The notes under the pieces: generated by a model
What the model was told of the DNA's origin: nothing
Databases searched by the model: none
What the model saw: only the letters and a program-made list of their open reading frames with translations
NCBI GenBank assembly: GCA_905221615.1
Contig: CAJNDT010004968.1
Span: 65,001-129,000 of the forward strand
DNA length: 64,000 nt
Source: Symbiodinium sp. CCMP2592
Lineage: Eukaryota > Sar > Dinophyceae > Suessiales > Symbiodiniaceae
Direction of reading: 5' to 3'
Part shown: positions 10,254 through 24,664 of the stretch, in pieces
Position numbering within the stretch: position 1 is the stretch's first letter
How the letters are laid out: every line of letters begins with the position of its first letter
Program-made: the position numbers and the translations under genes

Positions 10254-11282
10254 CTACATGCTGCTCTTGGTTTCAACCGTGGCATGCTCGACTCCAGCTT
10301 GTTCTTGCACTTCTTGCACTTCAGTACCTTGGTCCGAAACGGCTTCTGCCGTGTGGGAACCAAGCTCTGTGGCTGCGTCTTTGCCTCGGCTCTCGTCCTT
10401 GTCTTCACGCTCTGCTGCCTCTGCTCTCAAATAATGTCCTTCACCGATGTCTGCCTCGAAGCTGTCGAATTGGGATATGAAAAGAACTGCAGTGCAATCC
10501 TTAACAAACTCCATGTCGTTGTCAGAACCCATTGTCACGAGCGGCAAGAGCAAAAATACAGTGGTGAAAAGGATATCATTCACGATCCACGACATCAGCA
10601 AGCGCATCTTGGGGTAGTGATAGTGTCGACGATAGTGTCCGCGATTACTGAAGAAATACGTCATCCAAAACGGCTTTAGCTCGCCTGAGTGGAACCCTTG
10701 GCTCATCACCCGCTGGACAGTAGCAACAACGGAGCCTGCTGCATACCGCACAAATTCTTGCTCTGTTGTTTCTTCCTCAGAAAAGGATTTAGAGGCTATC
10801 CACCGTAACAGCAAAACATAGAGCAACATCTGAAGCACAAACACACTTGCACACTTGAGGAATGTGCCGGCTTCGATGTCCGTGTACACACTGACGGGCT
10901 CTAGTGGTTCATCTGTCACACCGTGCCCGGCGCTCTCCTTCTTCACCCGAGCATAGGTCACAATAGTCATGGCAATCGACCGCACAATAGAATAGAAGAA
11001 CACTCCAATCATGGCACCAGTTGTCGTATATTGGACACAGCCATACACCAAGAGGAAGACACAGCTTCCTTCCCAAAGAAGCGCAGTGGTTCGAACAACT
11101 TCTTGATAGTATGCTGTGTCCTTGTGGACACCATCTGACGAGCCGCCGTTGAACCAAAATTCGGAGCATATCAATGCCGGTACAGCCACTGGAGCAACCC
11201 CAGCCATCACCAGACCAATTATGACCTCTGGTTCCTGGACCCACTCCTCGAAAGGGAAAGGAAGGAAATCTTCCATAGCCAT
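10254..11282 (-). CDS. Multi-pass membrane protein, unknown function, intronless
   Basis: This is a 342-codon uninterrupted frame from ATG at 11282 to a stop at 10254. A second in-frame ATG two codons later (MAMED) could also start it. Hydrophobic segments lie at roughly residues 20-45, 68-112 (probably two helices), 143-163, 232-254 and a weaker one near 265. The segment NDILFTTVFLLLPLVTMGSD is the most striking. A Glu/Asp/Lys-rich hydrophilic tail of about 65 residues follows and is probably cytosolic. I do not recognise the family. The gene lies 1.2 kb downstream of the channel gene on the same strand, whereas most neighbours are broken into short exons. The intact frame and strong membrane pattern make it a secure gene even without a name. 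It could be a transporter or channel subunit, but nothing in the sequence proves that. Confidence 0.8.
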   Translation of the reverse strand: MAMEDFLPFPFEEWVQEPEVIIGLVMAGVAPVAVPALICSEFWFNGGSSDGVHKDTAYYQEVVRTTALLWEGSCVFLLVYGCVQYTTTGAMIGVFFYSIVRSIAMTIVTYARVKKESAGHGVTDEPLEPVSVYTDIEAGTFLKCASVFVLQMLLYVLLLRWIASKSFSEEETTEQEFVRYAAGSVVATVQRVMSQGFHSGELKPFWMTYFFSNRGHYRRHYHYPKMRLLMSWIVNDILFTTVFLLLPLVTMGSDNDMEFVKDCTAVLFISQFDSFEADIGEGHYLRAEAAEREDKDESRGKDAATELGSHTAEAVSDQGTEVQEVQEQAGVEHATVETKSSM

Positions 11283-12489: not shown

Positions 12490-13270
12490 TTACTGTAAAT
12501 CGTCTGCCTCCCACGCCTCTGATGGCTCTGTGTTCCTACGATAGACTTCGTCTTCGTGAACATCTTTCTTTGGTGAAACACGGCTGAAGCTGTTCAGACT
12601 GCGCGTCCTCGAGAGGCCCCTGCTTACGGCCTTTGGGGCACCGGAAGAAAAATGAAAAAGAACAGCAGTGCCAACACCGACGGCATGTAGCGTGAATATT
12701 CCAAGCATACTTTCGAATTTGAGCTGACCAGCTGTGCTTTCACGAGGGTTCACCTCTGTGACACAGTTGTCCACAGGCATCAGGGACTTCTTGACGATCG
12801 AGCGCAGCGTTCCATCCAACTCCATCTGCAGAAGCCACAAGCCTAGGACATCGCGAACCAAGGAGGTGCAAGAGTCGGCGACGTCATTGAGCACCATCCA
12901 TCCGGCGGCCGTGCTTTGTAAAGGCTCTCCTATGGTCTGCATGTAGCAATTTGGGTTCAGGCTGTGCGTCTGCCTCAGGAACTCATACTCAAACTTGGCA
13001 TAGGTGGCGACATCACACGTGCCCTCATTCAACCGTCTAGCACGTTCAGCGGGACCACCCGAAACGGGAATTAAGTTCTTGTAATTCGGAAACGCGGATC
13101 GGAACCAGTCGTGGTCAGCAGAATTCGCAGCGACGCAGACTTTCTTATTCTTATTAACAGCGCCGCTGAGGGAGTTGAACGACGGCTGGCTCTTCGCCTG
13201 AACAACAAGAAACGATGCCAGATTAGCAGTGTAGGCCGCCAAAATCAATACGACACACCAAGTCCATGAC
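12490..13270 (-). CDS. Ionotropic glutamate receptor-like channel, last exon (M3, S2, M4, tail)
   Basis: The exon begins at 13270 after an AG|G acceptor and runs to a stop at 12490 (781 bases; one base completes the upstream codon and 260 codons including the stop follow). It starts with WTWCVVLILAAYTANLASFL, the third membrane helix carrying the signature SYTANLAAF of ligand-gated glutamate channels, here AAYTANLASF. The S2 half of the ligand-binding lobe follows, with three cysteines in its C-terminal half that could pair (GTCDVAT, LNPNCYM, DSCTSL). The fourth helix is MLGIFTLHAVGVGTAVLFHF, followed by a Ser/Arg-rich cytosolic tail. These channels open on binding an amino-acid ligand and pass cations across the plasma membrane. 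The ligand and ion selectivity cannot be read here. Confidence 0.85.
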
Positions 13271-13488
13271 CTCGGCTGCATGGTGGTAATGAAAGACAAG
13301 GTGAAAACCAACAAGTCCCGCAATAGATGTCGAAACATGTCGAAACTACAGTGCGGAGGTTAAAGGTTCCAACACGAGAACATGGGCGTCTTCAGGACGC
13401 CAGCATGCAGCACTTCGCTTCAAGTACTGCAGCCACCGAAAACATTAAGACTTACTGGACCTGCGTGTGTAGCCACTGGGTCACTGAC
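13271..13488 (-). other. Intron of the channel gene (218 bases)
   Basis: The minus strand reads ...GTAAT|GTCAGTGA at the donor and CCGAG|GTCATGG at the acceptor. Removing 13271-13488 joins GKILVM to SWTWCVVLILAAYTANLASF in frame, which restores the expected pore-to-M3 sequence of the family. It is a GT-AG intron with a G after the acceptor, the style seen across this window. Confidence 0.8.
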
Positions 13489-14042
13489 ATTACCAGTATC
13501 TTTCCTGCCCAGGTCCTCGGTGAAAAACTAGAGGCTCCAGTGATGTGGCCCGAGGACTGGAAGATGGCATCCATGCACTGCATCCAGACTTTACATTTGC
13601 AGGACCTCTGCGGTCCATCCGGGAAGTCTTCAGAATTGCGGCCGACCTCCAAAACCCTGTACATCAGACCCGTCGCCACCATGAGGCCAAGGAAGCTCAA
13701 CCAAACGGGGCCACTGAATGGTGTGAGAAAGGAGAATATCTCTTCGAGATCAATCCCTTCCTTGGTTTCCTCCATCACTACGGCCCAATACACGGCATCT
13801 AAGATTCCGTAGGGGCTGTATGCGCCGATGCTCATGCGTTCTGGTGTAATGAACCAGTATGCGTATGTCACCAGGTCGAATCGACCGATCGCATCCTGAA
13901 GCTGATCAAGCCAAGGGCTCGAGGACGTCCAGTTGTGGAAGTTCAGGCTGTAGGTGAAGCGGCCTCGCCTGGAAAGCTCCTCCGGACAGGCAGAGTTAGG
14001 GAAGTCCAAAGGGCAGGAAGGACAACCCCAATACTTGCCCAT
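13489..14042 (-). CDS. Ionotropic glutamate receptor-like channel, S1-M1-pore exon
   Basis: The frame runs from about 14042 to the donor at 13489. The S1 binding-lobe pattern FDLVTYAYWFITPERMSIGA (about residues 55-74) resembles the conserved 'D..v....it..R...v.fs.p' block. M1 is GPVWLSFLGLMVATGLMYRV, followed by a Cys/Lys-rich linker and the re-entrant pore region around DAIFQSSGHITGASSFSPRT. The start is uncertain. The ATG at 14042 is preceded in frame by TGA, so an acceptor just upstream (TGAG|TT) is likely and the ATG is probably internal. It continues directly into the M3 exon through the intron at 13271-13488. Confidence 0.75.
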
Positions 14043-14849: not shown

Positions 14850-16539
14850 CCTATATCATGCGGAGCGCTTGAGCCATTTGCAACAGTGTGCTTTGCACTA
14901 CCATACCGAAAGCCTGTGCCAAAGCAGCCTTCTGCACGACTGCGAGCTGCTTCCGGGCCTTCCCTGTTCTCTGCACTCCAGACTCATTTTCTCCACGGAT
15001 CCACGGGCCAGGAAGCTGTGACTAGCATGGGCTAGCCAGTGAAATGTTTTGCGGACAGCCATCCTATGCTGTACATCTCGGAGCGCGGCCTCATTCCAAG
15101 TCAGCACTCGGCTACGTCGTAGCCTATGCAGTTGAGTGCGGGTGTGGCTGAGGATGAGGGCGAGGAGTGCGAGTGAGGAGCGACAGTGAGGATGAGCAGT
15201 GAAGGTGAGGGTGAGTGAGAGGAATGACATTTCAGTTGGGATGATGAACTGAAGCTAGGGTCACGGCGTCGTCAGCAGACGGGGCATGCCGAGTGAGGCT
15301 CAGCCGAAAGCTACCGTGTACACACACACACACAGACACATGTCAAAACGACGGCTGAAACGCGCACGATGCCAACTCAGGTACCAATGTCAACTTATGC
15401 CTACTGCCTACAATTCCAACAGACGCCAACTCGGAATCAAATGCCAGCTGACGTGGTCTTTGTTGGGTGGCCACACACACACACACGACGAAAGGTGAGG
15501 ATTGAACCGTATAGCCCTGGCTCGAGGATTGAAAATATCGGAACAACTGAGATTGCGCGCTTGGTGCCACGATCTTTCAGTTGCCTGGAAGCACTGAGGC
15601 ACGAGCTTCTCCAAGTGCAGCAGATGCCCGACTCAAAGCCCGTGCCGTTGTCGGCAAGCCTCTCCGGCACGCCCGAGTTGAGACCCGAGTGCATCACATC
15701 CCTGGATGTTGGGCCTGGAGTGAAAATGAAATCGCCGCAGAAGGACGCGACCTCTGTCGAGCCACTACAGTAGCGATCGGGTGTCCCGAAAGCTTTACAG
15801 CCAAGAGTATTGACAAATAAACCGTATCATGCAAGACTGCATGCATGCATCTTGAAAGCATGCATGCATAAAGACTATTAAGGACTCATTCGTTAGTCAT
15901 TGATCCATCAGTCCACCTTGGCATCGACAATAATAAGAGTATCCATCCATCCATCCATCATGCATGCATAGATCCCTCATCTGCATGCCTGCATTCATAT
16001 ATACATGCATGCATTCGTACGTTCAACAGATCATAACCCACTACGTGTACTACGTTTGTACTTCAATTTTGGAAATACAACCGGCTGACATCTCGAGCGC
16101 TGCCGGCGACCCCGGTCTTGGAATTTGTGATGAATCGCGGCCGACACGTAATCCATGTATTGGAAACTTACAGGGGGTCACGAGAAGCTGATCGTAGCGG
16201 CACCACCCGCATGTGCAGCGCGCGCGGCACGATATCACTGCTCCGGCGGAGGCGAGAGTTGGGATTTGCGATGGAGGAACGTGTGCACATTCCTTTTCCC
16301 TTAGTACCTGAGCGATTCAGCGACGCACGAGGCTGCTTTTTACAATGGATCACGCAGCTGGAATTTTCGGGGCCGGGAGGGCACGTCCACTGTCAGTTAC
16401 AACGGATCGCGCCGGCCCAAGCGCGAAGCAGCAACTGCTGCTAACCCGGTCCGGTGCACTATCAGAGAAAGTGCATGAGGACGGACTCACAGAAAACATG
16501 CCAGAAAGAAAGAGAAACAGGCACAGCATCACATCATAT
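14850..16539. other. Intergenic with microsatellites
   Basis: No gene is supported. Short (CA)n runs occur near 15318-15338 and 15472-15487, and a CATG/CATC-rich block lies at 15836-16020. The YR retrotransposon begins at 16540. Confidence 0.55.
15836..16020. repeat. GCAT/CCAT tetranucleotide repeats
   Basis: Repeated gcatgcat and ccatccatccat words; the GCATGCAT runs are self-complementary. Confidence 0.75.
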
Positions 16540-16715
16540 CATGTTAAACCCTCATGGCCGCTTGAATGCTGATTTTCAGCGCCGACAGCTGTGCAGTCTT
16601 GTGTGAAGCGTCGCTGCAACCTGAACAAGAAGCTTCGTAAGTCCTCGCGGCTGTACGGAGAGCAGAGAACAGCTTCTAAAAAGGCAGTTGCTGCAGCAGG
16701 CAAACTCACGCCTTC
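16540..16715 (-). repeat. Split direct repeat B2 (3' end of element)
   Basis: These 176 bases look identical to 16777-16952 (constant offset 237). It ends the element: beyond 16540 the sequence no longer matches B1. Confidence 0.9.
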
Positions 16716-16730
16716 AGGGCGGGTGGGCGG

Positions 16731-16779
16731 GAAGAGCAAAAGCTGAGCGGCCGGTTTTCAGGTTGAACATGCTTCACAT
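16731..16779 (-). repeat. Split direct repeat A2
   Basis: These 49 bases match 24133-24181 (offset 7402). It overlaps B1 by the three bases CAT (16777-16779), which are probably the recombination core, and is separated from B2 by a 15-base G-rich spacer (16716-16730). Confidence 0.9.
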
Positions 16780-16952
16780 GTTAAACCCTCATGGCCGCTT
16801 GAATGCTGATTTTCAGCGCCGACAGCTGTGCAGTCTTGTGTGAAGCGTCGCTGCAACCTGAACAAGAAGCTTCGTAAGTCCTCGCGGCTGTACGGAGAGC
16901 AGAGAACAGCTTCTAAAAAGGCAGTTGCTGCAGCAGGCAAACTCACGCCTTC
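16777..16952 (-). repeat. Split direct repeat B1
   Basis: This is the internal copy of the 176-base B repeat, starting about 100 bases after the YR stop codon. The 97-base spacer from 16953 to 17049 contains several AAGGCC/GGCCTT-type complementary words but no ORF. Confidence 0.9.
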
Positions 16953-17049
16953 CACCCTTAGAAGAACACCTCAAGGGCCTCAAAAGGCCACGAGCGTGGT
17001 CGGCTCATGACAGTGTGGACAAAGCCAAAGCCTTGAGGTGGCCCGCAGG

Positions 17050-18822
17050 TCACTGCAGTAAGTAGAGGTCGTAGAGGCTGGCGGCGGCTTTGACGCGGTC
17101 GGTGCAATGTGGCGGCAGTTTAAGTAGGAGGTTTTCAGCCGCAACTTCCTGTAGGTAAGCTTCCAGCGTGACCTGATGCCGAATGCGCATGCGCCATTGG
17201 AGCGTAGCCAGATCAGTGCCACGGTGGTATTCCGCCACAGCGCCTCCACCACGAAGGCCTCCCGGAGTGAGCTTGAAGGACTTCGGCACCAAAAGCGCGT
17301 CGAGGAGGGAGTCCCACCGGCGCCTGAAGGCCGAGGGCGAGCCCGGAAACAGCGCCTCGTTCGGAGCGAGGTTCTTGAAGACACGCTCCAGGAGGGGCAA
17401 GACGGCTGCATTACGAACGGAAATATGCTGCACCCGAGCCTTGGTGCGCCGGCCGGTTTTGGGAGACCGGATCTTGAGGTAGCACACCGCCTTGTCGCCG
17501 AGGCACAAGTCCGAAGGGAGCAACATGTCTGACCGGAGGGAGCGAAGAGCCTCTCCGGGCCGTGAAATTCCCCAGAATGAGATCAACAGGATGCCTGCGA
17601 CCCTCTCCCATTTCCAGAGAAGGGCCAGGCAAACCATGCCCCGCAAGATCACTTCCGGAAGGGGCGCTCTATGTTGTAGCGGCTCGACAACCTCCCACTT
17701 GGAGACGAGGTTCCAGCACTCGTAGGTGTGTTGGCGCAAAGCTGGGAGCCGCTTGACGGCCGCTAGGATCAAATGTCTGAAGAGATAGAGAGATTCTCCA
17801 GTGCTGAAGAGGTACTTTCCAAATCCACAAACCAAGGCCGAAAGCAGCACAGCTTCGCTCAGCAGCTCGTCACTAGCTGACGGGGAGGTCCCGTCGATCA
17901 CCCACGCTTGGAATCTGGACCAGATCCGCTCCTGCAGCTTTTCGGTCTGAGCTGAAACGAGCTTGACATCATCGAGATTCTGATTTCGCGCTGCCCGGAC
18001 TTGACCTCTGGGGGGCCGCGGTCCTGGGTGGCTGGCCTCGCCGATGATCTCGTTGGTGATCTTCGCGCAGGCCGCTAAATCGAGCCGTTCTCGGAGCCGT
18101 TCTGAACCAACCGAATAACAAGCGATGACTTCTCCAAGCAAACCTGAAAACTGTTTCGGAAAAGGTTCCGAGACTCTCGTCCAGGCCTGCTTGAATCTCC
18201 GACTGTAACCTCTCAGAGATAGGTGTCGTAAGCATCCCGGGCAGTTGATTTTGAGCTCCCGAAGACTCGAGTTCGTGAGCACCTTAGTCGGTTTCTTCCA
18301 AGGGGCCCCGAACGCGCACATGTCACTGGAGAAGTAGCCTACATCACGATGCTCTCGAATGCTTTTCCACTCGCTCTGTCGCCACAGCCAAGAGCGAGCG
18401 GGATTTTCAATCCAGAAAATCACGTCACGTAAAAGACATAATTGAACCAGTCTGGCGAGCCAAGCTGAAAGCAGATTTCCATTCGCAACTTTCTCGGCCA
18501 TGCCTTCATGGAGATTCGGTAACCCTGCAGGGAACTCTGATGTCCGAACCGCAGGCTGCACGGCAACAGAAAAAGAGGAAGCTCCAATGGCAGCCCCGAT
18601 GGCAAAGAAGACGCCACCTTGGATTAAGCGCTCGATTTTTTCCCGAAGCTCCACTTCGAGAAGGTCGCAGTCCGGACCGTCACGAATGTCTATGCAGAGC
18701 GACCAAGTTGCAGCAGCCGCGGAAACAACTTTGGCGACCCCGCGTCTACCAGCAAAGAGGTCTAAGTACCCAGGTTTGTTGAAGACCCAAGTGCTGCAGT
18801 GGTCTCGGTTTTGGGGCCACAC
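17050..18822 (-). CDS. Methyltransferase-like / tyrosine recombinase fusion protein
   Basis: A 590-codon frame is shown from GTG 18822, but it is open from about 18962 and overlaps the end of the RNase H ORF in the -1 frame. No ATG precedes the first domain, so expression by frameshift or reinitiation is likely. Residues 19-185 resemble a C5 cytosine methyltransferase fold: DLFAG (21-25, motif I), FWIENP (136-141, motif VI-like) and APWKKPTKV (173-181). Where the catalytic Pro-Cys is expected it has IGASSFSVAV (79-88), so it is probably inactive. GEASHPGP (261-268) links to the recombinase. Recombinase residues are R421 in SRPGE, a Lys-rich hairpin (449-461), R524 in GGLRGGG, H549 and the nucleophile Y556 in LEAYLQ. 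The usual His of the HxxR box is Gly. The recombinase would insert the circular copy. Confidence 0.85.
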   Translation of the reverse strand: MWPQNRDHCSTWVFNKPGYLDLFAGRRGVAKVVSAAAATWSLCIDIRDGPDCDLLEVELREKIERLIQGGVFFAIGAAIGASSFSVAVQPAVRTSEFPAGLPNLHEGMAEKVANGNLLSAWLARLVQLCLLRDVIFWIENPARSWLWRQSEWKSIREHRDVGYFSSDMCAFGAPWKKPTKVLTNSSLRELKINCPGCLRHLSLRGYSRRFKQAWTRVSEPFPKQFSGLLGEVIACYSVGSERLRERLDLAACAKITNEIIGEASHPGPRPPRGQVRAARNQNLDDVKLVSAQTEKLQERIWSRFQAWVIDGTSPSASDELLSEAVLLSALVCGFGKYLFSTGESLYLFRHLILAAVKRLPALRQHTYECWNLVSKWEVVEPLQHRAPLPEVILRGMVCLALLWKWERVAGILLISFWGISRPGEALRSLRSDMLLPSDLCLGDKAVCYLKIRSPKTGRRTKARVQHISVRNAAVLPLLERVFKNLAPNEALFPGSPSAFRRRWDSLLDALLVPKSFKLTPGGLRGGGAVAEYHRGTDLATLQWRMRIRHQVTLEAYLQEVAAENLLLKLPPHCTDRVKAAASLYDLYLLQ

Positions 18823-18938
18823 AAAGAGGCTGCTGCTGAAGCTCCGAAGAATGCCGATGAGCTCGGCTCCGAAAATGCTAGACTCTGTAAGGGCCCCACC
18901 TCCACAACTCGATTGATCAGCACTGATGTCGAGGTTGT

Positions 18939-20345
18939 CTAATGAAATCCCGGTCGGCGGCCCTCACTTCTAGACCCTGACTCCGTCAGGTCTCGCGGCC
19001 CTTCTGTCCGTGGCAGGGCCTGCTGGCGGGACCACACATCGCCGAGGAGTTCGCAAGGACTTGGGATGTCGAGTTGCGTGGAAAGTGTTTCCCCGGCCTC
19101 TTCAAGCCACTTGTCGAAAGTGGTGTAGTTGCCTGAGGATAAGTCGGACCACCACTCGGGCATCTCGAGATCTGGGCCACGCACCTCCAAGCCTCGGGTG
19201 GGATCGTCAGCCCTGTTGAGCCTGGTGTCAACATAGAAACTTTCACTGGTGACGTCGGCCCCAATGATGCACGGCACGGACTGCTGCAGTAGACTGTTCA
19301 ATGCCAAACTCGACGATCTCCCTTTCTGCACGCACCCTAGAGTGACCTGAGAATCAGACCCTCGAAGTGCCCGGCTGCTTGGATGGTGCCGAGCCTGCCG
19401 TCTTTCGGACCGTAAGAATGCTCTGAGCTCGGACACGTTGATGTGGCGTCGAGCCTCGCTCTTTGCCTTCCACGCTGTCCTGTAACGAGGGCAGCGAGTC
19501 AGCACCTCCCACAAAGGATGCATCGAGTACTGTTGCCCTTCAGGAAGCTCTTCGCTAGGATCTAGAGTGCCGTGGAGTCGTGCTAAAGATGATGTGGGCC
19601 CTAGGAGACGAGTCCACACCGACTTCCTCAATGAGTGGCGCACCCCCTCCCGGGCGATCTCACTCGGAACCTCCGCTTCCACTTCTGCTTCGCCCCATCC
19701 TGAGGCATCGGTCGCGTAGACCTGAGGCAGGATGGCGGCTCGAATGTTTGAGACAGCCAGCGGGATCATTAAGGCGCACAAGACGAGCTCCTCCTGAAGT
19801 TCGGGCCCGAGCGGTATGATATCATCGGCCTCGTGGTGCTGAACAACGGCAAACACGATGTTCAGGAGGGAAAGCAAGCGCCTTTTGTAGATGAAAATGG
19901 AAACGAGAGATCCCGAGATGACCTGCAGGAGCCGGGCAGTGGCAAACTTCACGGTCACAACCCGAAAAATGATGTGCATCAGGGGAATGGCCCTGACGAG
20001 GGAAGCTCGTACCAAACCGGCCTCACCGTCCACAGTACCCCAAAAGGTCGCCTGAGGTAGATCACGAAAGGCCTTGCCGGGGTGCGGTATCAAGCCCTCT
20101 GCGACATACGTATCACTCATGAGGTCGGCCGCCTTTGCGCCGCCGCTTCGGTGCTCCCCGCCGCGAAAGTCCCCTCCGACCTTTTCAGCACAAACGAAGT
20201 CGTCTATGACGATCCCTCCGAAGGTTCGAGACCGGGGCGGAGGTCCCGCCAATGTCAATGTGGACTCCGGCTCGAGGGCACCTGATCGCCAAGCCATGCT
20301 AAGGTGGCAGGTTTGAGCTATTTCCACTGCTTGGCAGTCTCCCAT
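18939..20345 (-). CDS. RT C-terminal part and RNase H domain
   Basis: The ATG at 20345 lies inside the conserved RT block, so the true N-terminus is in the preceding ORF. Reading this frame upstream gives IPSLNTLAMGDCQAVEIAQ, which is RT motif B. GIVIDDFV (residues 44-51) is motif C with the paired catalytic Asp 48-49. FWGTVDGEAG (101-110) is a downstream conserved block. RNase H follows, with Asp213 in YATDASGWG, Glu306 in NVSELRAF, Asp331 in GSDSQV and Asp381 in NRADDPTRG. It ends with TAG at 18939 and overlaps the YR frame by about 24 bases. The function is to finish cDNA synthesis and degrade template RNA. All visible catalytic acidic residues are kept. Confidence 0.85.
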   Translation of the reverse strand: MGDCQAVEIAQTCHLSMAWRSGALEPESTLTLAGPPPRSRTFGGIVIDDFVCAEKVGGDFRGGEHRSGGAKAADLMSDTYVAEGLIPHPGKAFRDLPQATFWGTVDGEAGLVRASLVRAIPLMHIIFRVVTVKFATARLLQVISGSLVSIFIYKRRLLSLLNIVFAVVQHHEADDIIPLGPELQEELVLCALMIPLAVSNIRAAILPQVYATDASGWGEAEVEAEVPSEIAREGVRHSLRKSVWTRLLGPTSSLARLHGTLDPSEELPEGQQYSMHPLWEVLTRCPRYRTAWKAKSEARRHINVSELRAFLRSERRQARHHPSSRALRGSDSQVTLGCVQKGRSSSLALNSLLQQSVPCIIGADVTSESFYVDTRLNRADDPTRGLEVRGPDLEMPEWWSDLSSGNYTTFDKWLEEAGETLSTQLDIPSPCELLGDVWSRQQALPRTEGPRDLTESGSRSEGRRPGFH

Positions 20346-20368
20346 TGCTAACGTGTTCAGGGAAGGTA

Positions 20369-21376
20369 TTAAATTAAGTACCGAGCTCCAGCATGTAGTT
20401 CAGGATCGTAGGCACGAAAATTGCGGCACACATCCTCAGGAACGAACATGTTCATGCTGTTTCGGATCGATCTGTTCTTGGGCACTTTGAACAAGTGATA
20501 GAAGTCTCGGACGTCATTCCCCGAGAAGACCAGGCGCTCGCCTGGCATCAGGATGAGCCGGCACAAACTTTCCCCGGACGCTAAGCTTCGAATCCACCGA
20601 CCAATCGGGTGCTCCAAGGCATTGGGTCGCCTTGCGTCCAGGATCATGCGGTCCTTCGAGCTGTCCTTGCCTACAGCGAAGACACCCGAAAGGAATTCAA
20701 GTCGAACGTCTTCGGGTCTAAAAAGGGCCAACCTCCCGCTCGCATCCAAAAGATCCAGAAAGCGATCCCTCTTGCCGTCGACGATGTGCACCTGGACCGC
20801 GGGGAGCTCACCGAAAAACTCCCAAGGAAGCAGGGCGTGCCGTAAGGGATCCAAGAAGATCTCGCGCCCGATCTTATCTAAGTACGGAGCCGGGTCAAAG
20901 GAGGGCTCGCCGATAAAGGAGATCCGGTCGGGGTCGAGCTTCTTGAAAGAGGTCCCTAGGCTAGATGCGAGTTTCCCTACACGGTTCACTCCACAAGACG
21001 GGGGCTGGCCAGGCTTGAGATCCTCGCGGCCAAACCGGTTGTAGGTGCCCTCGGGGAAGAGGCCGATCAGGACGGCCTCGAGGTCACTGAGCACGGCATC
21101 GATTTCCTCTACTTTAGCTGCATTTCTCCCGAGAGTTTCGGAAGTGACCAACGGATGAATTAGCCACGCTTCCAACAGCCTTTCGAAACGTCTAACTGTG
21201 GCCCACTGCTCCGAGCTGAGTTTCCTTCCCAACAGCATTTCGGCAGGCGCCTTCCGAGGACGCCGCAGATGGAGGAAGGAGAGGCCAACCACGAAGGAGT
21301 TCACGGCTCGCTTTCGGGCCCGGCTCTCGCGAGGCTCTCCAGTCTCTCGATAAGCTTCGGGGTAGGGCGGGGGCAT
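20369..21376 (-). CDS. Reverse transcriptase N-terminal part (frame broken after motif A)
   Basis: 335 codons from the first ATG (21376) to TAA at 20369-20371. The frame itself is open upstream into the Gag-like ORF. GVFAVGKDSSKDRMILDARR (231-250) is the fingers region and VFSGNDVRDFYH (283-294) is motif A with Asp288 and Asp291. The frame then stops after ARYLI, and motif B continues in the -1 frame at 20375 and below. Upstream conserved wording such as LLGRKLSSEQW and RNAAKVEEID fits the N-terminal RT extension of dinoflagellate YR elements (inference). No ATG lies near the end of the Gag-like ORF (21580), so the start may be 21376, or the protein may be made by a -1 shift from the Gag-like frame. 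The longer open reading upstream to 23755 overlaps Gag and is not counted. Confidence 0.8.
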   Translation of the reverse strand: MPPPYPEAYRETGEPRESRARKRAVNSFVVGLSFLHLRRPRKAPAEMLLGRKLSSEQWATVRRFERLLEAWLIHPLVTSETLGRNAAKVEEIDAVLSDLEAVLIGLFPEGTYNRFGREDLKPGQPPSCGVNRVGKLASSLGTSFKKLDPDRISFIGEPSFDPAPYLDKIGREIFLDPLRHALLPWEFFGELPAVQVHIVDGKRDRFLDLLDASGRLALFRPEDVRLEFLSGVFAVGKDSSKDRMILDARRPNALEHPIGRWIRSLASGESLCRLILMPGERLVFSGNDVRDFYHLFKVPKNRSIRNSMNMFVPEDVCRNFRAYDPELHAGARYLI

Positions 21377-21579
21377 AGGCCACACATCGGCTGATGAAGA
21401 AGCGGTGTTCGGCCGTCTTCGGCCGGTCTGTCTACGGACGCTTCTGGCAAAGGAACCCAAGGCACAATCTAAATGCAGAAGTTTCCTGGGCAATGAGGTC
21501 AAAATCGAAATTGCAGACAAAGCCGTGGAGAAAGGGGAGGCCTTCTCATCGATGTTGTTCTCCACGCTCGCCGCAGCCT

Positions 21580-23316
21580 TTACTCTTCGCTGTGCGGACC
21601 TTTTGGCTTTTGTTTGGCTTTCGGGCCCCTCTGAGCCGCCGCGTCTGATCCGGGGTCGACGGTAGGGCCGGGCTTTCTCTGAGTCAGCTTTCGCCGGGCT
21701 TCCAAGTAGGACTCGTGCTCTTTCAGCTGCCAAAGGAAAAGCTCGAACCAACGAGGATCGTAGAGAGCGGAGTGCTGGCACTCGTGGGCGGCTGGGGTCG
21801 TATGATGACTGAACTGCTGGTACGGTGGTGGGGGCTCTAGAAGAGCCACTGTCGATATCAGCCAATTTCCGCTGTCGATGGACGACTGCTCTCCGGCTGC
21901 CATGAGCAGAGCCACTCTGGCTCTCGCCTCTTCGTTCTGCCCCTGCATCAGGCAGTCCCAAACAGCACTCAGCTGCCAAAGCCATCGTACATGATTGGTG
22001 TAGTTTTGGACCCTCGAGCGCGTTTGGAGCCAGGCCCTCGCCGTCCCGTGCCCAGAGGGCTCCCCGGCCACTTGGGCGCGCAATCCAAAGTCTTCTCGCA
22101 GGTTCCGCTCGATGTTCTCGTAGATGGCCGCCGGTTGTTCCTTCAGGAGACGCTTCAAGGCGGCCAGCGCCGCGGAGTTCCGACGGGAGCCGCCGCCGGA
22201 AGATGTATCCCCTCGGTCTGCCAAGCTCCCAGAAAGGAGGTTCTCCAAGTCCGTCTTCGCCTCCGCCTTCTTTGGAACGAGGGTCTTGGCGATCTTTGTC
22301 AGCTCCACCACGGCCCGCTTTAAGGGATCCGGAGGCTCGCCCGAGCCAGAAGCGCCGCCATCTGCTGCATCCACCGCCTCCTCGTCCTCCGTCTCGGAAA
22401 GAGGTCCCTGTTTCTGGGGCCGACGAGGAAGATCTTCGATGCGGCCAGGCCGAGATAGGAGTAGATCGGCCATCTGATTCAAGTGTTCCTCGGAGATCCC
22501 TGCGGCACGAGCGGAAGCAACAACCGAGCGATCTAGCTTTCCTATGCCCCCGGCTTTCTCCCGAACTGTTGCTGAAGGTGCGGCTGTCGTCGTGGCGCGA
22601 GGTCGCTCCCGGTCGGCTCCTGGTTTCTGGGTCTCCCGGGCCTTCTCCTTCACGAGCAGGGCAAGGGACTGCTGAATCTGAGTCAGAGAGCCTTCCAGTG
22701 CCGCAACCCGTCTGGTGACGTCCTCGCCAACGGCGGCGCCGCCCAAAGGAGGAGGATCTGCGGACTCCGCGGTCAGGAACGAAAAGTGCTCGTCCCCCAA
22801 TCGGATAAGGGCCTCGGAAAGGGGCAGACACCTCTCGCCCTGGGCATCTACAAAGGAGATCGCCAAGTCCTCGCCGGCACCCCGCTCCCTGACCTTGGCC
22901 TCGGCGCTCGGAGCGAGGTAGGCGACCCAGACCTTCAGTTCGCATTCGGAGGGCTCCCCATCCGCCGCAGCTGGAGGTTTCTGTCCAGCCACCAAGGCGA
23001 GCACAGGTTTCGAAAGGCTTCCAGGTGGAAGAGCTCGCCGAGCAGGGCTTCGATGCCAAACCCCAGCAGGCAGGGCTACTAGCAATTTGCCCCCAACCAC
23101 AACTACGGGAATAACGGCAGCAAGTTGCAACCCGGCCCCGTCCTGACCAGCGGTCTCCAAACAAAGCTCGGGGGCGGTCTCGTCTAATCTCCCGCCATCC
23201 TCGGTGACCAAACACCAATCGCGGACCGTCAAGGGCATGCCATCGTCGCCTGGACCATCGGCTTCCACTGCACTGTGCTCCGCTCCGCTGCCTTCGCCAG
23301 CAGATTCGGCACTCAT
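21580..23316 (-). CDS. Gag-like structural protein of the retrotransposon
   Basis: 578 codons from ATG 23316, which overlaps the stop of the upstream ORF as ATGA (23313-23316). It stops at 21580. The N-terminal 150 residues look like a folded beta-rich domain. A short coiled coil follows (about 200-225, RRVAALEGSLTQIQQSLALL), then a low-complexity Pro/Asp/Glu linker (230-335). A helical C-terminal domain (340-545) contains NHVRWLWQLSAVWDCLMQG and PRWFELFLWQLKEHESYLEA. PPPPY is at 495-499. The end is Lys-rich (RGPKAKQKPKG). No zinc knuckle is visible. The Gag role is inferred from position before RT, size and composition; the protein would bind and package the element RNA. Confidence 0.75.
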   Translation of the reverse strand: MSAESAGEGSGAEHSAVEADGPGDDGMPLTVRDWCLVTEDGGRLDETAPELCLETAGQDGAGLQLAAVIPVVVVGGKLLVALPAGVWHRSPARRALPPGSLSKPVLALVAGQKPPAAADGEPSECELKVWVAYLAPSAEAKVRERGAGEDLAISFVDAQGERCLPLSEALIRLGDEHFSFLTAESADPPPLGGAAVGEDVTRRVAALEGSLTQIQQSLALLVKEKARETQKPGADRERPRATTTAAPSATVREKAGGIGKLDRSVVASARAAGISEEHLNQMADLLLSRPGRIEDLPRRPQKQGPLSETEDEEAVDAADGGASGSGEPPDPLKRAVVELTKIAKTLVPKKAEAKTDLENLLSGSLADRGDTSSGGGSRRNSAALAALKRLLKEQPAAIYENIERNLREDFGLRAQVAGEPSGHGTARAWLQTRSRVQNYTNHVRWLWQLSAVWDCLMQGQNEEARARVALLMAAGEQSSIDSGNWLISTVALLEPPPPYQQFSHHTTPAAHECQHSALYDPRWFELFLWQLKEHESYLEARRKLTQRKPGPTVDPGSDAAAQRGPKAKQKPKGPHSEE

Positions 23317-23813
23317 TTCTCCTCAAACTCGGGCCAGGCCAGACGGGCCCTGGCAACTGCGGTCCGTGCCTCGCGTTGCGAGGCAAAACCGGAGAAGATG
23401 GAATCCGCAAAGCCGACGCCCTCCTGCACGAGGGGCCTGCAGTCGCTGAACCTGTAAAAGACTCGGACAGGATTGTAGCAAACCCCAGTCTTTCCCCGAA
23501 CCACCACGTAGACCCTCTTTGCGAGCTGAATCTGACGCTGCCCCGATTCTCCCCTGTCTCTGCCCTCCAGGCAGCGAAGGAAGAAATCACCAGTGTCACG
23601 AGCAATTTCCAAACGGCGCTCCCAACTGAGAGAGCCGTCTTGAAGAGCCCCGGTGTCCGCCGCGGCGGCTGAGATCTGTTCGAAGCTGCCTGCGGTGGTA
23701 CCGGCAGTAGGTTCGGAGTTCCCAGCAGAACCGGACAGGCCGGCCTGGATTTCAAGAGCTCTCACTCGCAGAACCAGAGAATCGATCTGATCCTGCAGAT
23801 TCCCCTGGCTCAT
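23313..23813 (-). CDS. Retrotransposon ORF2, coiled-coil protein
   Basis: 166 codons from ATG 23813, whose ATGA (23810-23813) overlaps the stop of ORF1. A short heptad-like helix opens it (LQDQIDSLVLRVRALEIQ), followed by an Ala/Gly/Thr-rich linker. A basic domain (about 60-166) includes KRVYVVVRGKTGVCYNPVRV and YRFSDCRPLVQEG. This could be n RNA-binding or Gag-accessory domain; no family is recognised. Its ATGA overlaps on both sides suggest that the three 5' ORFs are translated by coupled termination and reinitiation. Confidence 0.7.
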   Translation of the reverse strand: MSQGNLQDQIDSLVLRVRALEIQAGLSGSAGNSEPTAGTTAGSFEQISAAAADTGALQDGSLSWERRLEIARDTGDFFLRCLEGRDRGESGQRQIQLAKRVYVVVRGKTGVCYNPVRVFYRFSDCRPLVQEGVGFADSIFSGFASQREARTAVARARLAWPEFEEK

Positions 23814-24172
23814 TCAAGAATCTTATACAGATTCGGGGGCAAGCGCCTAAGTTGGGCGCGGATCCGGGCCTTCAAGAAGGCCTGCCACAAGTAAAGGAGT
23901 TCAAAGAGCGGCCACAAAAGCAGCCCAATGACAACCCCGATCACCAGGGACAGAAGATCCAGATGGAGCCCCAAAAAGCTCAAGCAGGGTTCGGGCCCCA
24001 AGCTCGGGCAGTGGAAATCCAGCGGTAACTCAGGAGCTCGCAGATGCTGAGCTAGAGCCACAAGGAGTGCACTCAAAGAGCCAGAGGCGGCAGCCGGAGC
24101 GATGCTATGGCTCAGGTCCATACACTGTCGCTGAAGAGCAAAAGCTGAGCGGCCGGTTTTCAGGTTGAACAT
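23810..24172 (-). CDS. Retrotransposon ORF1, small membrane protein
   Basis: 120 codons from ATG 24172, ten bases inside the element's 5' end, so the first codons are encoded by the terminal repeat A1. The N-terminus is MFNLKTGRSAFALQRQ. A long hydrophobic segment (about residues 72-98, with LVIGVVIGLLLWPLFELLYL) predicts one or two membrane passes. A basic tail KARIRAQLRRLPPN follows. It ends in TGA within ATGA shared with ORF2. I know no standard role for a membrane protein in this element class. Confidence 0.65.
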   Translation of the reverse strand: MFNLKTGRSAFALQRQCMDLSHSIAPAAASGSLSALLVALAQHLRAPELPLDFHCPSLGPEPCLSFLGLHLDLLSLVIGVVIGLLLWPLFELLYLWQAFLKARIRAQLRRLPPNLYKILE

Positions 24173-24181
24173 GCTTCACAT
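24133..24181 (-). repeat. Split direct repeat A1 (5' end of element)
   Basis: 49-base repeat at the element's 5' end. It contains the start codon of the first ORF (24172), ten bases inside the terminus, and begins with ATG immediately followed by TGA. Confidence 0.9.
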
Positions 24182-24276
24182 CCTATAAGCACCTCTGCTG
24201 AAAGATCTGAAAGTGCTGTAAAAAAACAGACCAACTGTTGCGACATAGCGTAAAACAGTGCTTTTAAAGCAGCCGA

Positions 24277-24664
24277 TGCTCACCACTGCCACGCCATCGC
24301 AAGCACACTTCATTCGAGAAAGCACCTGCGCGGATCTACATAAGTGACGGTCTGGAGCCATGGGTGCTTTCAAACAGCAACACCTGGAATTGTCTTCCGC
24401 CTACTGATATTGCAGCTTTGTCTTCAGCTCCGAACTCATGCAACGGCTCGGAACTGCTTTGGAAGCCGCCAATGCTCACCACTGCTACGCCATCGCCAGC
24501 GCACTCATTGGGCAAAACGCCTACACGAACCTTCATCAGTGATGCGCTCGAGCCACACGTGCCTTTAAGATGCAACACCTGGATTTGTCTTCCGCCTGCC
24601 GTTCTCGTGGCTGTGTCTTCAGCTTCGAGCGCAAGTTTGCGCAAAGCTACATTTCGGAACTGCC
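24277..24664. repeat. Two tandem copies of a 194-bp unit
   Basis: 24277-24470 and 24471-24664 share wording throughout (atgctcaccactgc, cgccatcgc, caacacctgga, ttgtcttccgcct), with clear divergence. Both strands are partly open. The minus strand gives the repeated peptide pair GGRQIQVLHL / GGRQFQVLLF and GDGVAVVSIGGFQS / CDGVAVVSIGCFKS. Whether it is coding is not decidable by eye. It begins about 95 bases from the retrotransposon's 5' end. Confidence 0.75.

Follow-up and report, generated by a model that had tools for sequence, protein, structure and literature searches.

What kind of mobile element occupies positions 16540–24181 of the window, by which we mean the whole 64,000-nt stretch of DNA analysed here, from the coral-symbiotic alga Symbiodinium sp. 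CCMP2592? An earlier note had proposed a complete PAT-type tyrosine recombinase (YR) retrotransposon with A1-B1-A2-B2 split direct repeats. In our reading, to which as a whole we give a probability of about 0.87, the locus holds a recent, defective copy of an element with a fused Pol, which would form a circle by means of its split repeats, recombine at a lox-like core site and make some use of DNA methylation.

Repeats, ends and nearest copies

The element is a YR retrotransposon in the order A1-ORFs-B1-A2-B2, and lies on the minus strand, so that it runs from A1, its 5' end, at 24181 to B2, its 3' end, at 16540 (Table 1). The 49-base repeat described earlier at the 5' end and near the 3' end, and the 176-base repeat described as occurring twice at the 3' end, were both located, each pair being 100% identical. 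Their lengths are far above chance expectation, and apart from the 176-nt pair no repeat of at least 60 nt was detected across the whole 64-kb window (20-nt exact seeds). The last 3 nt of B1, ATG on the element strand, are also the first of A2. The terminal repeats are direct; two inverted pairs were found, neither of them at the element ends.

A second copy in the genome, C5067, is 99.4% identical to the window copy and has unrelated flanks. A divergent relative, C5280, lies elsewhere in this genome and served for comparison of the reading frames. The window copy is probably a recent insertion, and it is coding-defective.

Table 1. Features of the element in the window, in order along the element strand
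Feature	Position	Strand	Remarks
A1, 5' terminal repeat, 49 nt	24133..24181	-	Starts ATG + spacer TGAAG + right arm CATGTT
ORF1, 103 aa from Met-Asp-Leu-Ser-His	23810..24121	-	A longer 120-aa reading begins within A1
ORF2, 166 aa, function unassigned	23313..23813	-	ATGA overlap with ORF1 stop
ORF3, 578 aa, Gag-like by position only	21580..23316	-	ATGA overlap with ORF2 stop
Pol piece 1: N-terminal part and first part of RT	20369..21496	-	-1 frame relative to ORF3
Pol piece 2: remaining RT (IDD catalytic motif) and RNase H	18939..20399	-	
Pol piece 3, 637 codons open: C5-methyltransferase-like domain, then tyrosine recombinase	17050..18963	-	
C5-methyltransferase-like domain	about 18780-18100	-	Within Pol piece 3; catalytic Cys replaced by Ala
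Tyrosine recombinase	about 18000-17100	-	Within Pol piece 3
B1, internal repeat, 176 nt	16777..16952	-	
B1/A2 junction, putative YR core site	16761..16787	-	GGTTTAACATG-TGAAG-CATGTTCAACC; inverted arms, 5-nt spacer
A2, internal copy of A1	16731..16779	-	
A2/B2 spacer, 15 nt	16716..16730	-	C-rich; the whole A2-to-B2 distance
B2, 3' terminal copy of B1	16540..16715	-	Last letters ...AACATG at the host junction

Reading frames

ORF1, ORF2 and ORF3 are intact in the window copy. ORF1 contains a hydrophobic segment which, judged by eye, is probably membrane-spanning. It shares 68.6% identity with its counterpart in C5280 (pN 0.206, pS 0.718); the corresponding values for ORF3 were discarded because ORF3 of C5280 is itself frameshifted. 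ORF2 is present upstream of most YR matches in the lineage. When five ORF2 proteins were scanned against Pfam, two resembled the Cauli_VI / RNase H1 N-terminal domain below the cut-off (E 0.024 and 0.058), a likeness that offers a weak lead only, and a profile search of PDB with the ORF2 alignment returned nothing relevant.

The frames that follow ORF3 are fragments of a single Pol reading frame, broken in the window copy; the corresponding region of C5280 is one uninterrupted frame of 1799 aa. Where the earlier note counted as many as six ORFs against a customary three, there are therefore four, and the extra frames were rejected as independent genes. Since Pol is broken in the window and open in C5280, the description of the element as complete holds for its ends and gene content and fails for its coding capacity. 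No -1 slippery heptamer common to the five elements checked was found at the ORF3/Pol junction; the window copy and C5067 alone have one pattern match each, and a common slippery sequence thus does not explain how Pol is expressed.

Domains of Pol

Pfam returned no reverse transcriptase (RT), RNase H (RH), methyltransferase (MT) or YR match for the window ORFs, their relatives or 30 Pol proteins, and at an E-value of 0.01 none of the 30 matched any family. A profile search of PDB chains with the Pol alignment (E 1) likewise gave nothing relevant and no sequence-level match. The domain identities consequently rest on predicted folds and motifs, and the lineage has probably been tallied as unknown or as host genes.

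Structure models predicted a Ty3 RT fold and a Cre fold. The order RT-RH-MT-YR was found in 52 of 77 homologues, with the YR on the RT strand and in a single protein with the RT. Canonical recombinases carry the residues R..K..HxxR..(H/W)..Y. In the alignment, the first Arg is kept in 44/45 sequences, the Lys in 43/43, the second Arg in 40/40 and the Tyr in 39/39; at the box-II His position of HxxR, 37/42 sequences have Gly instead, and only 25/39 retain the later His. The RT, RNase H and recombinase that the earlier note had placed between the repeats are borne out by these conserved catalytic columns and predicted structures, and the pairing of RT-RNase H and tyrosine recombinase within a single element, as in the DIRS order, is seen in the domain order, folds and columns alike. 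A correlation of distances left RNase H out, since no RNase H motif could be placed in the row used as reference.

For the domain preceding the YR, the fold matches listed for the predicted structure are C5 enzymes; Dam is absent from this list, which does not exclude it. Two alignment columns, which we take to be the catalytic Cys and ENP motifs of C5-type methyltransferases, are kept in 44/46 and 44-45/45 sequences, respectively, most rows having 35-43% identity to the first sequence. On these models, Pol apparently carries a methyltransferase domain of C5 type next to the YR. The lineage appears to be large and poorly recognised, with RT, recombinase and apparent methyltransferase joined in one protein.

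Relation to known elements

DIRS elements of Symbiodinium with the order A-coding-B-A-B were described in 2018 (PMC5890265), and the general element type is already known; what this analysis adds is a Pol fusion that Pfam does not see, together with ORF2 and the putative core site. No description of the fused version was found in the papers searched. Among the closest published systems is SymbioDIRS-Dnmt3, which shares with the window element the genus, the repeat order, a DIRS-type RT and YR, and a cytosine methyltransferase in Pol. As described, however, its methyltransferase is Dnmt3-class and counted by PF00145, and its YR occupies a separate ORF (de Mendoza et al. 2018, PMC5890265), whereas here RT-RH-MT-YR form one ORF, the methyltransferase is undetected by Pfam, and ORF1 and ORF2 precede ORF3. 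It is conceivable, and among the alternatives the best placed, that the element is an ordinary SymbioDIRS member whose novelty is only apparent through divergence: the host genus and repeat order are the same, and the 2018 paper reports further Symbiodinium DIRS elements that lack a DNMT and whose RTs are divergent (PMC5890265). The published elements are nevertheless set apart by their description, with a PF00145 DNMT and a separate YR ORF, from the lineage here, in which the YR is fused to Pol and Pfam is silent on the 30 Pols scanned, and among the matches listed (at least 112 YR and at least 124 PF00145) no YR match lay within 10 kb of a PF00145 match. Two PF00145 loci were inspected for SymbioDIRS-Dnmt3; neither was informative, as one was without an RT by eye and the other was N over its last part.

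The PAT group (Pat1, Toc, Kangaroo) is described as having A1-B1-A2-B2 split direct repeats, RT-RH, a methyltransferase and a YR (PMC4157794). Under that definition the window element, with its methyltransferase after RNase H and its YR in the same orientation, might be a true Pat1/Toc-like member carrying the usual DIRS/PAT methyltransferase. We consider this unlikely. The methyltransferases of the DIRS class are described as Dam-like adenine methyltransferases (PMC5890265), but the listed fold matches and the Cys and ENP columns here are of C5 type. Pat1 is described with a zinc finger in Gag, whereas neither a strict nor a loose CCHC/CCHH pattern occurs in three frames of the ORF3 stretch in any of six elements. 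The YR is fused to Pol and extra small ORFs are present; in Kangaroo, as described, the YR is inverted. Of the PAT-type label given earlier, the split direct repeats and the methyltransferase in Pol stand, while the C5-type model of the methyltransferase and the lack of a zinc-finger pattern fit it less well; the label is a structural fit only, judged against published descriptions of PAT.

Ngaro elements, including those of the protist Cafeteria, share the arrangement A1-[ORFs]-B1A2B2 as well as RT-RH and YR (PMC8547959), but they are described as keeping the YR, with a His-X-X-Arg motif, in its own ORF and, in PMC4157794, as lacking a methyltransferase, in contrast to the methyltransferase fold fused to a YR with mostly Gly for His. 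DIRS1, likewise a YR retrotransposon with a methyltransferase after RNase H, is described as ending in inverted repeats and containing an internal complementary region (PMC3266345), unlike the direct repeats found here.

State of the methyltransferase-like domain

In both the window copy and C5067 the methyltransferase Cys is Ala. The Ala form has moved, because these two copies are 99.4% identical at unrelated sites, and when 30 genome loci were scanned roughly for motifs, the Cys motif went unrecognised in many. One could therefore suppose a structural, catalytically dead DNA-binding domain whose activity is dispensable. The conservation of Cys and ENP across sequences as divergent as those aligned makes this improbable, and trans-mobilisation by intact relatives could account for two defective copies. 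If the methyltransferase is active, the lineage would be a differently built case of cytosine-methyltransferase retrotransposons in a genus with most of its genome reported as CG-methylated (PMC5890265), and the link between the two would become testable.

Further copies and the putative core site

A search of the genome for further copies, as proposed in the earlier note, found the order A1-B1-A2-B2 in the window copy, C5067, C5280, C1935, C424 and one divergent four-copy family, in agreement with the claim of split direct repeats in a dinoflagellate YR retrotransposon. A genome-wide count of the A repeat of the four-copy family gave exactly eight occurrences (4 x A1+A2), against 0 for a reversed-pattern control. 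Of the 30 best YR loci, 27 have B..B repeats 3' of the YR, in the order B1-A2-B2, and none were seen at the other three. Repeat lengths run from 96 to 285 nt across families, with a B1-B2 gap of 51-63 nt in 24/27. Because B extents were defined as exact repeats, the identity of B1 and B2 within an element is partly by construction; substitutions common to B1 and B2 were observed, two of eight substitution sites (in C3624 and C3424) being in one B only.

Inverted arms (...AACATG / CATGTT...) around a spacer of 5-7 nt recur in the same register among 21 B1/A2 junctions, some of them from the same family. Taken singly, the inverted repeat of a junction is weak evidence (p 0.002-0.066 when compared with shuffled letters), so the case for a core site rests on this recurrence. 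The right end of C5067 is without the G of CATG. Assembly can generate long exact repeats, but an LTR-type element or a tandem-duplication artefact mimicking split repeats can be set aside as very improbable, given the YR rather than integrase fold (no integrase having been noticed), the differing flanks of compared copies, and the many families that differ in repeat length and share both the narrow gap and the junction motif.

Proposed life cycle

For the fused-Pol element we propose the following. A single multi-gene RNA would be transcribed, carrying ORF1, ORF2, ORF3/Gag and then Pol in the -1 frame, and would be translated polycistronically. The Pol polyprotein would supply reverse transcriptase, RNase H, a C5-type DNA methyltransferase-like domain and a Cre-like tyrosine recombinase. 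During reverse transcription, the split repeats would rebuild both ends from their internal copies, giving a putative circle with a B-A junction, the sequence also present at B1/A2. This junction would be the lox-like core, which the recombinase may cross with a (C/A)TG-like chromosomal sequence, the position of the crossover being our supposition. After insertion the left junction would read TG + spacer + A1 and the right one ...AACATG, and the target would not be duplicated except for 2-4 shared bases. Such an insertion would resemble the integration described for DIRS1 through 3-bp identity without target duplication (PMC3266345). As the recurring inverted-arm core offers a concrete candidate YR substrate, the assumed circle-and-recombine step could be tested in vitro. 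The methyltransferase would probably methylate the cDNA, the circle or host DNA nearby, and might thereby help integration or escape from host control.

A more specific proposal is tentative, and we would sooner bet against it: that this is a large Pfam-invisible dinoflagellate YR clade with a C5 methyltransferase welded to the YR in one Pol polyprotein, in which the enzyme responsible for insertion, acting at a lox-like CATG-spacer-CATG circle core, also marks the DNA that it recombines, and ORF1-ORF2-ORF3 are stop/start-overlapping cistrons of one RNA.

Three of the 77 homologues bear host-gene names (Rraga twice, and ANK3). Another homologue, P0044, which lies outside the 30 scanned Pols, carries precomputed EF-hand and ion-channel domains and is probably a fused gene model.

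Layout, copies and reading frames

Read on the minus strand, the element has the order A1 (49 nt), ORF1, ORF2, ORF3, Pol, B1 (176 nt), A2, a 15-nt spacer and B2, with zero mismatches between A1 and A2, and likewise between B1 and B2. Just beyond its 5' end lies an imperfect tandem duplication (~195-nt spacing, 73-86% identity).

A search of the genome (G000, 1.10 Gb, in which the window is G000:C4882:65001-129000) using the element's 3' 661 nt revealed a second copy, on contig C5067, along with relatives on contigs C5280 and C1669. Across 16531-24181 the second copy matches at 99.4% identity; the left ends are the same, the right ends differ by at most one base, and the flanks are unrelated. 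Nucleotide identity to the relative on C5280 is mostly 65-70%; that element has 49-nt A repeats, 204-nt B repeats and one 1799-aa Pol frame.

Four ORFs are present in the window element and its relatives. Of 11 boundaries checked across six elements, either ORF1 to ORF2 or ORF2 to ORF3, 8 show the stop/start overlap ATGA. All five elements inspected for it have Pol in the -1 frame with respect to ORF3, and no slippery heptamer common to the five was found at ORF3/Pol. The window Pol is broken inside RT and between RNase H (RH) and the methyltransferase-like domain (MT); C5067 has the latter break too, plus others of its own elsewhere. In C5280, Pol is intact and ORF3 is broken. The pN and pS values against C5280 (dS saturated, ORF3 not comparable) indicate that ORF1, ORF2, the RT pieces with RH, and MT-YR are or were under purifying selection.

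Window coordinates of features, with pN and pS between the window element and C5280
Feature	Coordinates	Strand	pN	pS
Element	24181-16540	minus
ORF1			0.206	0.718
ORF2	23313-23813		0.309	0.684
First RT piece			0.215	0.736
RT end + RH			0.235	0.732
MT-YR			0.260	0.778
Tandem duplication	24259-24633
Lig_chan match	12490-13338	minus
Adjoining ORF	10254-11282
Adjoining ORF	13452-14042

ORF2 encodes a conserved small protein with weak similarity, below cutoff, to the RNase H1 N-terminal (Cauli_VI) domain. It matches 104 places in the genome including the window (103 further), of which 32 are not upstream of any listed YR. Of the at least 112 YR-domain matches, 72 are preceded by an ORF2 match on the same strand at a distance of 2-12 kb, and a wrongly oriented ORF2 match occurs within 12 kb of none; ORF2 precedes 28 of the 30 best YR loci.

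Repeats across the genome

The YR total includes two pieces of one place and is a lower bound, 111 of 701 first-look candidates having been scored. A direct repeat of 96-285 nt lies 3' of YR at 27 of the 30 best loci, with none at C4966, C802 and C4888. The B1-B2 gap is 51-63 nt in 24 of these 27 and 40, 88 and 125 nt in the others, the last because a mismatch shortened the repeat found. Among four further elements, A1 and A2 match in C1935 and C424, the C4079 sequence ends before its A1, and C4985 has two B pairs with no A pair found. At C4985 (locus L047, C4985:1354206-1363205), a single Pol frame lies between two pairs of direct repeats of 251 nt that are ~5.5 kb apart; this may be a nested or tandem element. 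One family of four copies has exactly eight occurrences of its A sequence genome-wide, the A1 and A2 of every copy (reversed-pattern control, 0 occurrences).

Comparison of copies within five families gave eight distinct B substitution sites, six of which carry the identical change at the identical offset in B1 and B2 (window/C5067, 1; C5280/C1669, 1; C259/C334/C178, 2; C4290/C83, 2). Two are confined to one B (C3624, C3424). Such mirrored changes are predicted if B1 and B2 are both copied from a single template, with a few mutations added afterwards. Three other two-copy families have identical B repeats and are uninformative, and the C5251/C4985 pair differs solely in the extent of the exact repeat. 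Three copy pairs (G000:C4079/G000:C2724, G000:C3046/G000:C705 and G000:C4960/G000:C5339) combine identical B repeats and differing right flanks with open frames of ~1900-2560 aa in most (496 in C705), which suggests very recent movement.

Repeat and host junctions

The B1/A2 junction of the window element reads GGTTTAACATG-TGAAG-CATGTTCAACC. Of 21 distinct 48-nt stretches across such junctions, some sharing a family, 20 have their best inverted repeat at the junction itself, with CATG arms flanking a 5-7 nt spacer. In the exception, C3424, a mismatch displaced the B end, and there too the junction is AACATG-TCAAG-CATGTT. Both arms vary together among families (GCCATG/CATGGC, TACATG/CATGTA, AAACATG/CATGTTT). 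Single-junction inverted repeats are weak (p 0.002-0.066 versus letter shuffles); it is the recurrence of the arms at one register that makes the junctions, taken jointly, resemble a recombinase core site.

On the left host side, the spacer is preceded by TG in 9/9 ends, by ATG in 7/9 and by CATG in 4/9. At the right, B2 ends in CATG in 25 of 26 inspected (after one mismatch in C4490), and C5067 ends in CAT. The simplest reading would be a crossover between the CATG edge of a putative circle and a TG-like chromosomal target. Such a crossover would resemble the 3-bp identity described for DIRS1 in PMC3266345.

Comparison with known groups

Compared with published descriptions of PAT and Ngaro, the element works like a PAT/Ngaro element and is a candidate member. 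PMC4157794 takes split repeats and a methyltransferase to define PAT, with a zinc finger in Gag marking Pat1 and the absence of a methyltransferase marking Ngaro; the present lineage fits the PAT repeat layout, but its type of methyltransferase, its Pol fusion and its small ORFs set it apart. PMC5890265 describes SymbioDIRS-Dnmt3, whose repeats run A-coding-B-A-B and whose Pol includes a Dnmt3-class DNMT, with YR in a separate ORF, so this repeat order is already known in Symbiodinium; it also reports DIRS without DNMT, and DIRS RTs that align poorly to Pfam. Among the 112 YR and 124 PF00145 (Pfam DNA methyltransferase) matches listed in the genome, no YR match lies within 10 kb of a PF00145 match. 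No description of a single-ORF RT-RH-MT-YR was found in the titles and abstract openings of the openly accessible journal papers listed on DIRS or YR retrotransposons of dinoflagellates, Symbiodiniaceae and Symbiodinium, on YR plus cytosine methyltransferase polyproteins and on split-repeat YR elements.

Elsewhere in the window, a Pfam Lig_chan match (E 1.3e-9) marks part of a gene for an ionotropic glutamate receptor-like channel. Two adjoining ORFs, with no Pfam match, may be further exons; the group sits ~2.5 kb from the retrotransposon, which is on its upstream side.
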